From contig NZ_SNVJ01000003.1 of assembly GCF_009829925.1 (NCBI RefSeq), forward strand, positions 186,001 through 250,000: DNA of 64,000 nucleotides, read 5' to 3'. This DNA is from Teichococcus coralli (lineage in GTDB: Bacteria > Pseudomonadota > Alphaproteobacteria > Acetobacterales > Acetobacteraceae). The position numbers and the translations under genes are program-made. The notes under the pieces were generated by a model, which made no database searches, was not told the DNA's origin, and saw only the letters and a program-made list of their open reading frames with translations. Position 1 is the first letter of the stretch. The number at the start of each line of letters is the position of its first letter. Shown one piece after another: positions 13,061 through 49,190 of this stretch.

Positions 13061-14644
13061 TCAGGCGGAGCGCATCATCTCCGGCGGCGCGGTGCGGCTG
13101 CGTTTGGCGAGCAGCTTGTTGAGCGCGTGCACATAGGCGCGGGCGGAGGCGATGATGGTGTCGGTATCGGCGCCCTGCCCGTCCACCAGCTTGCCTTCCT
13201 CCTCCAGGCGCACCGTCACGCGCGCCTGCGCGTCGGTGCCGCCGGTGACGGACTGCACGGCGTAGAGCTTCAGCGTCGCCTGGTGCGGCACCACCTGCTG
13301 CAGCGCGTTGAAGGTGGCGTCCACCGCGCCGTCGCCGCCGGCCACCGCCTCGACCTTCTCGCCGTCGATCTCCACCGCCAGCGAGGCCGTGGGGCGCGTG
13401 CCCATGCCGGTGGCCACCGTCAGCGCCAGCAGCTTCAGCCGGTCCTGCGCGCGCACCACCTCGTCATCCACCAGCGCGACGATGTCCTCGTCGTAGACGA
13501 CCTTCTTGCGGTCGGCGAGGTCCTTGAAGCGGCGGAAGGCGTCGTTCAGCTGGTTGTCGCCCAGCGTGTAGCCCAGCGTCGCCAGCTTGTCGCGGAAGGC
13601 GGCGCGGCCGGAATGCTTGCCCATCACCAGCGAGTTGGTGGACCAGCCGACGCTTTCCGGCGTCATGATCTCGTAGGTGGTCTTGTCCTTCAGCACGCCG
13701 TCCTGGTGGATGCCGCTCTCGTGCGCGAAGGCGTTGCGGCCGACGATGGCCTTGTTGGGCTGCACGTCGAAGCTGGTGATGGTGGCCAGCAGGCGGCTGG
13801 TCCGCAGGATGTTCTGGGTGACGATGCCGGTGGTGTAGGGCATGACGTCCGCGCGGGTGCGCAGCGCCATCGCCACCTCCTCCAGGCTGGCATTGCCGGC
13901 CCGCTCGCCGATGCCGTTGATGGTCGCCTCCACCTGCCGCGCGCCGGCCTCGATGGCCGCCAGGGTGTTCGCCACCGCCAGGCCCAGGTCGTCATGGTTG
14001 TGGGTGGAGAAGATCACGCCGTCGGCGCCCGGCACCCGCTCGCGCAGCATGGTGAAGATGCGCTTCAGGTCGTCGGGAACCGCGTAGCCCACGGTGTCCG
14101 GGATGTTGATGGTGGTGGCGCCCGCCTTGATGGCGGCCTCCACGCAGCGGCACAGGAACTCCGGGTCGGTGCGCGAGCCGTCCTCGGCCGACCACTCGAC
14201 ATCGGCCACATGGTTGCGCGCCAGCGAGACGGACTTGGTGATCGCCTCCAGCACCTCCTCGCGGCTCATGCGCAGCTTGACGCGCATGTGCAGGTCGGAG
14301 GTGGAGAGGAAGGTGTGGATGCGCTGGCGGGCGGCGGGCTTCACCGCCTCCACCGCGCGCAGGATGTCGCCGGGCGCGGAGCGCGACAGGCCGCAGACCA
14401 CCGGCCCGTCCTTGGCGAAGCGCTGGGCGATGGAGAGCACGCTCTCGAAGTCGCCCTGGCTGGCGATGGGGAAGCCGGCCTCCATGACGTCCACGCCCAG
14501 CTCGGCCAGGGCCTCGGCCATGCGCAGCTTCTCCTCCAGGTTCATGGAGAAGCCGGGCGACTGCTCGCCGTCGCGCAGGGTGGTGTCGAAGACGATGACG
14601 CGCTTGTCGTCGATGGTGCCGAAGCTGGGATGGCTGATGGCCAT
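13061..14644 (-). CDS. leuA: 2-isopropylmalate synthase
   Basis: A 527-residue LeuA, which condenses acetyl-CoA with 2-oxoisovalerate as the first committed step of leucine synthesis. The HMG-lyase-like TIM barrel begins with [20 protein letters not shown] and includes the metal ligands in the conserved [19 protein letters not shown] loop and [12 protein letters not shown]. The C-terminal LeuA dimer domain (about 390-520, [34 protein letters not shown]) binds leucine for feedback inhibition. The ribosome site GAAGGAACG precedes the ATG. The 5' region contains a leucine-rich leader peptide and alternative hairpins, so expression is very likely under attenuation; see leuL. The pathway partners ilvB, ilvH and ilvC lie on the same strand at 19.6-23.1 kb, but separately transcribed genes lie between. 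Confidence 0.97.
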
Positions 14645-14682
14645 GGGGCGTTCCTTCGTTGCTGCCGTGAACCGGATAGGCG

Positions 14683-14753
14683 GAGGCGCGTGCTGCGCCT
14701 CAGGGTCCCCCTGAGCGATGCCGGCAGAAACAGCCGGGCGTCACGCTCAGGGG
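14683..14753 (-). promoter_or_regulatory. Leucine attenuator: mutually exclusive hairpins
   Basis: On the minus-strand RNA four segments follow the leader ORF. Segment 1 (14753-14744) pairs perfectly over 10 bases with segment 2 (14717-14708). Segment 2 can instead pair over 7 bases with segment 3 (14705-14699). Segment 3 also forms, with 14689-14683, the hairpin GAGGCGC-AGCAC-GCGCCTC. Segment 1 contains the leader stop codon. This 1:2, 2:3, 3:4 layout is that of a classic transcription attenuator. No U-tract follows the last hairpin, so the end point (termination or translation) is inferred. Confidence 0.75.
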
Positions 14754-14848
14754 CGGCTAAGTCGAAGGAGAAGGAGGCCGGGAAGCGCGCGCGCGGCAGC
14801 GACGGCGGAGCCGTTCGTCAGGCCGGGAAGGCGCGCGCGGGCGTTCAT
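14747..14848 (-). CDS. leuL: leuA leader peptide (33 aa, leucine-rich)
   Basis: An ATG at 14848 opens a 33-codon frame that ends in a TGA at 14747-14749. Eight of 33 residues are leucine, and the peptide ends PGLLLLRLSRP: four consecutive Leu codons (CTC CTT CTC CTT, 14776-14765) and one more CTT at 14759-14761. CTT is rare elsewhere in this GC-rich window, as expected of codons chosen for ribosome stalling. The Leu run lies 6 bases before segment 1 of the attenuator, so a ribosome stalled there would cover segment 1 and free segment 2. No ribosome site precedes the ATG. The predicted promoter puts transcription start at or next to the A of ATG, suggesting a leaderless message, as known for trpL of Sinorhizobium. 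The assignment is by reading, not by database hit. Confidence 0.82.
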   Translation of the reverse strand: MNARARLPGLTNGSAVAAARALPGLLLLRLSRP

Positions 14849-14855
14849 GCCCTGG

Positions 14856-14884
14856 ACGATAGGGAGGGCGCCGCCCTGCCGCAA
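14856..14884 (-). promoter_or_regulatory. Predicted leuL-leuA promoter
   Basis: On the minus strand TTGCGG (14884-14879) and TATCGT (14861-14856) are separated by exactly 17 bases. Seven bases after the -10 element comes the ATG of leuL, so the predicted first transcribed base coincides with the start codon. Confidence 0.6.
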
Positions 14885-32402: not shown

Positions 32403-32540
32403 CTGGGAAACATCCTCAAGTCTGGAGTCCGCGGCCAGGCGTGCCGCGCGTCGCGCCGGGGTGTAGCCGGGGGCGGTGGGGCGCGGCAACAAGGGCACGC
32501 GCCGGCCAGCTCCGGCATGGCCGAAAAAGGCGGCCCTCCC

Positions 32541-32560
32541 CCCTCGCAATCGGGCGAGGG
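32541..32560. promoter_or_regulatory. Hairpin in the thyX-ssrA divergent spacer
   Basis: CCCTCGC-AATCG-GGCGAGGG is a near-perfect hairpin in the spacer between the two divergent starts, just before TATATCC, which may be part of an ssrA -10 element. Its role is not clear. Confidence 0.35.
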
Positions 32561-32589
32561 AGGGTCTATATCCGGCCTGCTCGCCTTCG

Positions 32590-32870
32590 GGCGGCTATGG
32601 CGATAAACGGCGTGTGGAATAAGCGTTGCGGACCCGGGGGCAGTGCCCGGCGTCTCCACCAGTTTTGGCCCAGGCCTCGGCCTGTGGCTCGCATGGGGAC
32701 GAAACAGGCTCGACGCGCGCGGTAAAGACCCGTCTTTTGCCCGGCATTGTACCACCGTCATCGGGCTATATCACAAGTGCCAACGATAACAGCCGCGAGG
32801 CTGTGGCGCTCGCTGCCTAAATAGGTAAGCGCGGTCCGGGGGGAACCGGGCAACAGAATCCCCCCACTTC
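32590..32870 (+). ncRNA. ssrA: tmRNA, circularly permuted two-piece form
   Basis: Trans-translation RNA. The acceptor part comes first: T-arm CCGGG-GGCAGTG-CCCGG (32634-32650), acceptor strand CGTCTCC (32651-32657) and encoded ACCA ending at 32661. The coding part starts at GGGGACG (32695-32701), which pairs with CGTCTCC through one G-U pair to form the acceptor stem. The tag frame 32779-32820 reads ANDNSREAVALAA then TAA. Acceptor-before-coding order is the permuted form known from alphaproteobacteria, whose RNA is cut into two pieces. The 33-base piece 32662-32694 would be removed. With the alanine brought by tmRNA the tag is AANDN...ALAA, which keeps both the adaptor-binding start and the ClpX-binding end. 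The 5' and 3' limits are approximate. sspB follows after 85 bases. Confidence 0.92.
32779..32820 (+). other. tmRNA tag reading frame (ANDNSREAVALAA)
   Basis: Thirteen codons plus TAA inside ssrA. The resume codon is GCC at 32779. The open frame that extends upstream to 32626 is not a gene. Confidence 0.9.
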
Positions 32871-48646: not shown

Positions 48647-49062
48647 GCGTCAGGTGGCCGGGCGGCCGCTGGTCATGGGCAGGCCCCATGGCTGGAGGAA
48701 AGTCCGGGCTCCACGGGAATACGGTGCCGGCCAACGGCCGGCGGGGGCGACCCCAGGGAAAGTGCCACAGAAATCAAACCGCCGGGCCGGTTCGCCGCCC
48801 CGGCAAGGGTGAAACGGTGCGGTAAGAGCGCACCGCGCCCCCGGCGACGGGGGCGGCATGGTAAACCCCACCGGGAGCAAGGCCGAATAGGGGTGGCCGG
48901 CGGGGATTCCGCGAGGAATCCGTCCGCGGGGGGCTTTCCCGCCCCGTCACCCGGGTTGGCCGCGTGAGGCATGCCGCAAGGCATGTCCCAGAGGAATGGT
49001 CGCCGCACGCCGCCGGTTCGCCGGAGGCGTGGACAGAACCCGGCTTACAGGCCACCTGACGC
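48647..49062 (+). ncRNA. rnpB: RNase P RNA, bacterial class A
   Basis: A ~416-base RNA that cuts tRNA 5' leaders. The ends pair perfectly as helix P1: GCGTCAGGTGGC (48647-48658) with GCCACCTGACGC (49051-49062). The conserved core is present: GAGGAAAGTCCGGGCTCC from 48695, ACAGAAA-like ACAGAAATCAAACCGCC near 48769, GGTAAACCCC near 48860 and the closing ACAGAACCCGGCTTACAG near 49033. The length is usual for alphaproteobacterial class A RNA. It lies between the amidase gene and mraZ. Small open frames over it, on both strands, are not genes. Confidence 0.96.
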
Positions 49063-49190
49063 CTTTCGGCAACACCGCGTCACAATTCCTACAGTCATAC
49101 GACGGAAGTGCGACAGCACGCCGTAGAGCCATGTTTTTTCTGTTTTTAACCAGGACTTCGGCTGGGGTTTTGCCCTTGCTGCCCTGACTC
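49063..49190 (+). other. Spacer between rnpB and mraZ operator
   Basis: No gene is seen. ACGG-AAGTGC-GACA-GCAC-G-CCGT near 49102-49124 can form a hairpin, followed shortly by TTTTTTCTGTTTTT (49134-49147), a likely rnpB terminator. A second small hairpin, CCAG-GACTTCGG-CTGG then GGTTTT, follows at 49150-49171. The T-rich stretch could also be part of the mraZ promoter. Confidence 0.5.

Follow-up and report, generated by a model that had tools for sequence, protein, structure and literature searches.

A leucine-codon leader upstream of leuA in Teichococcus coralli and other Alphaproteobacteria: a probable translational attenuator whose sensing codons may hide the leuA ribosome-binding site

The window analysed here, a 64,000-nucleotide stretch of DNA from Teichococcus coralli, carries on its minus strand a leuA gene preceded by a short leucine-rich open reading frame (ORF) and by several segments capable of mutual pairing. 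From the promoter to the gene, the features are as follows:

14856..14884, minus strand: σ70-like promoter, with TTGCGG (14884–14879), a 17-nt spacer and TATCGT (14861–14856), 7 nt upstream of the leader ATG
14747..14848, minus strand: leader peptide ORF of 33 codons ending in GLLLLRLSRP and a stop, probably leaderless, with the C-terminus LLLLRLSRP(WA) kept in relatives
14759..14776, minus strand: Leu tract CTC CTT CTC CTT CGA CTT, the putative sensing codons (fold, CTT enrichment, swap tests)
14769–14763, minus strand: TCCTTCG within the Leu tract, predicted anti-Shine-Dalgarno (anti-SD) strand of the base stem, pairing with 14658–14652 in the minimum-energy fold
14744..14753, minus strand: segment 1, CCCCTGAGCG, which holds the stop codon TGA (14749–14747) and takes part in the covarying 1:2 stem
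14708..14717, minus strand: segment 2, CGCTCAGGGG, which can pair with segment 1 or segment 3 (alignment A1)
14699..14705, minus strand: segment 3, CCCTGAG, alternative partner for segment 2
14683..14701, minus strand: 3:4 hairpin GAGGCGC-AGCAC-GCGCCTC, present in the sequence, with no U-tract after it
14652..14667, minus strand: 3' strand of the predicted base stem, CGGC (14667–14664) plus CGAAGGA (14658–14652), which includes the leuA SD AAGGA
13061..14644, minus strand: leuA, 2-isopropylmalate synthase of the bacterial type (NCBIfam NF002087 and TIGR00973, above cut-off)

A sequence-only reading of this region had described a 33-codon, Leu-rich ORF whose stop codon lies in the first of four segments able to form alternative helices, and all of these elements are found in the window: the ORF runs from 14848 to 14747 upstream of leuA and translates as MNARARLPGLTNGSAVAAARALPGLLLLRLSRP, its TGA falls in segment 1, and the sequence accommodates helices 1:2 (CCCCTGAGCG:CGCTCAGGGG, 10 bp), 2:3 (CTCAGGG:CCCTGAG, 7 bp) and 3:4 (GAGGCGC:GCGCCTC, 7 bp). 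Taken over the ORF as a whole, the leucine codons are indeed mostly the rare CTT, which accounts for 5/8 of them versus 5.2% in a crude background set of 38 window genes (P = 2e-5); the run of four, by contrast, is made of two CTT and two CTC.

The TTGCGG–17–TATCGT promoter was likewise found at the spacing that the same reading had linked to a leaderless message, and its position strongly suggests that transcription begins at the AUG, a predicted start. In a scan that retained the best promoter per locus and made no use of the leader start or ATG, the implied start fell within −3..+2 of an in-frame ATG for 65/79 Roseomonas-like and 43/58 other Acetobacteraceae leaders (3% expected), and at an in-frame ATG in just 1/33 loci of other families. 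An SD of at least four letters lies upstream of the leader in about 20% of Acetobacteraceae loci, versus about 75% for leuA. Together with the implied-start counts, these frequencies indicate that leaderlessness, as predicted from sequence, is a conserved trait of the Acetobacteraceae, and the leader peptide of the window is very probably leaderless. In 80% of 171 loci, the promoter scored above the 95th percentile of shuffles, a figure biased upward because start codons were chosen partly on this score. By eye, the S. meliloti and Paracoccus leaders also display a −10-like box 7 nt ahead of the ATG.

The loci nearest to that of the window belong to Pseudoroseomonas/Roseomonas (leuA loci of relatives are referred to below by L-numbers). 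A leader was detected in most of about 100 Acetobacteraceae leuA loci, with the conserved end (L)LLLRLSRP or ..RPWA, and samples of the family (one per genus) and of the class (one per family) also carry it, with the core CTTCGACTTAnCCGCCCCTGAGCG...CGCTCAGGGG. A loss of the terminal WA from the window leader by a TGG to TGA mutation was considered and set aside, TGA being common at that site across the class. The Leu codons are retained in Acetobacteraceae, Rhodobacterales and Sphingomonadales alike, amid changes in the surrounding bases. In the class-wide alignment A1 (64 sequences), stem 1:2 is paired in 95% of cells, and 21 cells are altered on both sides versus 6.4 in shuffles, a value reached in 0/500 shuffles; two of its ten pairs are invariant, and the number of pairs with double changes, five, is less striking (reached by 36/500 shuffles). 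The comparison with other Acetobacteraceae, which the sequence-only reading had put forward as a check, thus bears it out for the Leu codons and stem 1:2, both of which are retained, stem 1:2 also covarying. The anatomy of the leader goes beyond chance, since the leader recurs in most sampled Acetobacteraceae, the 1:2 stem covaries and the promoter–ATG spacing is conserved. In the same alignment, CGACUUA is nearly invariant, its rare codons CGA and CTT among the rest, and this is more constancy than leucine sensing or pairing with the SD would appear to demand.

A covariance model of the core detects one strong copy in the genome of the window and matches 70/299 genomes of the phylum, 69 in the same class and one, marginal (E = 0.003), outside it; the element occurs in one copy per genome, adjoining leuA where checked. 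Some Alphaproteobacteria of this 299-genome sample, including family f138, gave no match, so that the element, judged from sequence, is widespread across Alphaproteobacteria, not universal.

How might this leader act? Classical transcription attenuation, with 3:4 as an intrinsic terminator and 2:3 as the antiterminator, would make use of all three helices that exist in the window, and classical attenuators share with the window leader a peptide rich in the product amino acid; their GC-rich hairpin followed by a U-tract is absent here. More specifically, the 3:4 hairpin lacks a U-tract, a terminator scan of the window leader came out empty, and 3:4 is not conserved in the sequences of relatives, as read by eye. 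Of the 79 Roseomonas-like loci, 3 contain TTTT, none contains TTTTT and 2 have a terminator-like site; the earlier proposal that 3:4 terminates transcription is not supported. Strong 2:3-type helices argue for transcription attenuation among Acetobacteraceae, where they are commoner than in shuffles (57/79 Roseomonas-like loci versus 26, and 24/59 other loci versus 9), but not in other families, where the count (1/33, versus 4 in shuffles) does not rise above shuffles. We consider this mechanism quite unlikely for the window, and leuA is most likely controlled mainly at translation rather than at transcription termination. Note that at L164, an Acetobacteraceae locus from a 2.0 Mb genome, a 21-bp 1:2 hairpin has T8 after it and plausibly forms an intrinsic terminator, and a related leader may act by transcription attenuation there.

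The sequence-only reading had missed one feature, the complementarity of the Leu tract to the leuA SD. In the predicted fold of 14780–14640, UCCUUCG of the Leu codons pairs with CGAAGGA of the leuA SD region, and GCCG with CGGC, enclosing hairpin 1:2; the Leu tract–SD pairing appears in both the minimum-energy and the centroid folds (z = −2.68, 2/200 shuffles as stable). The modelled accessibility of the SD, a thermodynamic computation using a simple ribosome footprint, is 0.016 for the ribosome-free RNA and stays near 0.02 when a ribosome sits on codons 9–22, but reaches 0.38–0.53 with the ribosome A site on codons 27–30. It remains raised (0.33–0.55) up to the stop codon, and the partial opening computed for a ribosome at the stop codon (0.33) counts against the proposed attenuator. 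Over 126 relatives, the mean computed accessibility is 0.20 in the free RNA, 0.39 once a ribosome covers the Leu codons (p = 1e-14) and 0.23 with the same mask placed 33 nt upstream (p = 0.16). In the Paracoccus fold, the Leu run pairs with the SD AAGAAGGA.

Since the Leu codons are predicted to pair with and hide the leuA ribosome-binding site, a ribosome held there by a lack of leucine should turn leuA on; and since the UCCUUCG that pairs over the SD lies within the sensing codons, the leucine-sensing codons would themselves be the SD-hiding strand. That a leucine-responsive translational attenuator of this kind controls leuA is the reading we favour and hold to be likely; the enrichment of CUU around the core and the lack of a terminator also speak for it. 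From this arrangement, we infer the following transcription start, stalling, leucine response and effect on LeuA synthesis: (i) the mRNA would begin at or a few nucleotides from the leader AUG, the leader being translated without an SD site; (ii) when leucine is plentiful, the leader ribosome would depart and UCCUUCG and GCCG would pair with CGGC..CGAAGGA over the SD, around hairpin 1:2, so that the SD would be hidden and leuA poorly translated; (iii) when leucine is scarce, the ribosome would wait at the CUC/CUU codons and mask both the anti-SD strand and segment 1, so that the SD would open and, in Acetobacteraceae, segment 2 would be free to pair with segment 3. The broader proposal of the sequence-only reading, a leucine-codon leader peptide for leuA in which ribosome position is expected to choose between RNA folds, is supported by the retention of Leu codons and stem 1:2. 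In erm translational attenuation, a stalled leader ribosome opens a stem that hides the SD; erm leaders sense antibiotics via an arrest peptide, whereas the window leader is proposed to sense an amino acid via codons.

If the pairing is under selection, each species' strand should pair better with its own 5' region than with those of other species. Initially, swapping the Leu tract against SD regions gave a weak difference (−12.6 kcal/mol for native pairs, −11.7 kcal/mol for swapped ones), since close relatives show almost no change in either strand; later tests used a longer strand and wider samples. For the Leu run taken by itself, compensatory changes were sought explicitly, with p = 0.06. 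Within Acetobacteraceae, neither this run nor the SD varies much, so that covariation there rests mostly on the neighbouring GACUUANNNN part. Taking all p-values as nominal, with at least eight variants run and relatedness only partly removed, native pairing exceeded swapped pairing in the Acetobacteraceae, pooled and thinned (p = 1.7e-4, n = 106; controls with the strand shifted gave non-significant p of 0.4–0.8), in the first class sample, one per family (p = 0.0012, n = 30), and in 16 mostly Rhodobacterales-like loci (p = 0.002), the last being a post hoc test made after the result of the second class sample, with the strand placed differently, on loci of that sample that lay outside its own swap test. 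That second sample served for validation and is rich in Rhizobiales and Sphingomonadales (n = 39); in it, strands paired with their own 5' regions no better than with foreign ones (p = 0.42), and the mechanism is therefore not established class-wide. Partners that change together are seen at L198 (GACTTAGGTG:CACCTAAGTC), L161 (GACTTATCGG:CCGATCAAGTC), L248, L252 and L266; striking individual pairings also occur at L142 and L177, and the Rhodobacterales-like set includes loci with TCCTTAGC:GCTAAGGA and with changed pairs. Species-specific pairing thus appears in several groups, the predicted SD pairing being well supported in Acetobacteraceae and supported in Rhodobacterales.

Such pairing between the Leu tract and the SD region is not predicted by Rho-dependent attenuation, in which stalling or release of the leader ribosome would set the access of Rho to the leader RNA. 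This mechanism would suit a leader devoid of an intrinsic terminator, would be compatible with simultaneous SD control, and has been suggested for the terminator-less leaders of actinobacterial cys operons (PMC1262725); we regard it as unlikely. Another view, proposed by the authors of the LEU element for Actinobacteria, is that a regulatory protein binds the structure and that the Leu codons are secondary. It would account for the conservation of CGACUUA and of the hairpin beyond what Leu codons require, but the Leu codons outlast changes in the flanking bases across Acetobacteraceae, Rhodobacterales and Sphingomonadales, and SD pairing offers a protein-free route, which makes a protein ligand distinctly improbable.

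The leader RNA or peptide might instead act mainly in trans, like rnTrpL/peTrpL of Sinorhizobium. The trpL leader of S. meliloti (PMC10117765) is, as predicted for the window, a leaderless leader peptide preceding an amino-acid gene in an alphaproteobacterium, and the C-terminus of the window peptide is conserved. The trpL attenuator, however, yields a small RNA, whereas the window leader lacks such a terminator and so has no obvious route for releasing a 5' RNA acting in trans; the element is single-copy and lies beside leuA where checked; and the conserved residues of the peptide are encoded where the RNA is paired, so that no trans role is needed to explain their conservation. We deem trans action very improbable.

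The closest known systems are actinobacterial, and the earlier claim that a leaderless leucine design is new fails on their account. The LEU element of Actinobacteria (Seliverstov et al. 2005, PMC1262725) combines a Leu-codon leader with pairing of these codons to the leuA SD, its action being left open and a protein ligand favoured by its authors. In S. lividans, LeuL1 is a leaderless leucine leader before leuA with no terminator (PMC8079986), and leu leaders are also known in Corynebacterium (PMC5784534, PMC4046766). According to the summary cited in PMC1262725, leader-peptide mutations of S. coelicolor leuA have some effect, inconsistent with classical attenuation. Like the LEU element, the window leader has (i) an ORF containing a Leu run ahead of leuA, (ii) a predicted base stem between Leu codons and leuA SD (fold, accessibility and swap tests, one class sample being not significant) and (iii) internal structure around the stop with no terminator; like LeuL1, it is predicted to be leaderless. 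Unlike it, actinobacterial leaders are short (MRFGLLLLSCRGEGL) and their conserved letters differ, and the internal structure of LEU is described as a pseudoknot, whereas we examined a nested hairpin 1:2 with the alternative 2:3. Covariance model R1 gave E = 0.024 in Nonomuraea and no match up to E = 10 in Nocardia and Tsukamurella, so that common descent with the LEU element is not established. The leaderless polycysteine short ORFs of mycobacteria, presented as translation attenuation in the account relayed by PMC13236596 (Canestrari et al. 2020), are likewise leaderless amino-acid-codon leaders, differing, so far as that account goes, in their cysteine codons and in the genes involved.

No description of an alphaproteobacterial version was found in the open-licence literature searched, and no Rfam family matched the element at the gathering score (a relaxed E-value gave one irrelevant chance match on the other strand); it thus appears undescribed in that literature and outside Rfam. 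RNA-family annotation would gain a missing element. Moreover, the working of the terminator-less actinobacterial leuA leaders was left open in 2005 and Alphaproteobacteria offer a second, widespread version, in which both strands of the putative SD-hiding stem vary, so that the proposed identity of sensing codons and anti-SD strand can be tested directly in tractable Rhodobacterales or Acetobacteraceae.

In Sphingomonadales-like genomes, the same leader (..LLRLTRP and a stop) precedes a LeuA of the yeast/actinobacterial type: the L223 and L224 proteins pass the TIGR00970 cut-off, and those of L228, L234, L239, L241, L246, L247, L249, L259, L267, L268, L274, L276 and L284 are of this type by N-terminus (about a dozen) or annotation. 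It is conceivable, though we find it rather doubtful, that Alphaproteobacteria and Actinobacteria have in common an old leucine-sensing leader whose codons are the anti-SD strand and which persists when the gene under its control is exchanged; the leader would then either have received a new leuA downstream or have been transferred along with its gene. At L282 (S. meliloti pSymB, about 286–412), a leader ORF ending in ..LLLLGLIRGCRVR precedes a yeast-type leuA, with TTGCTC-17-TATAGG 7 nt ahead of its ATG; model R1 gave no match to it. Elsewhere on the plus strand, the window holds an alphaproteobacterial (permuted) tmRNA (32540–32868) and a class A RNase P RNA (48650–49063).
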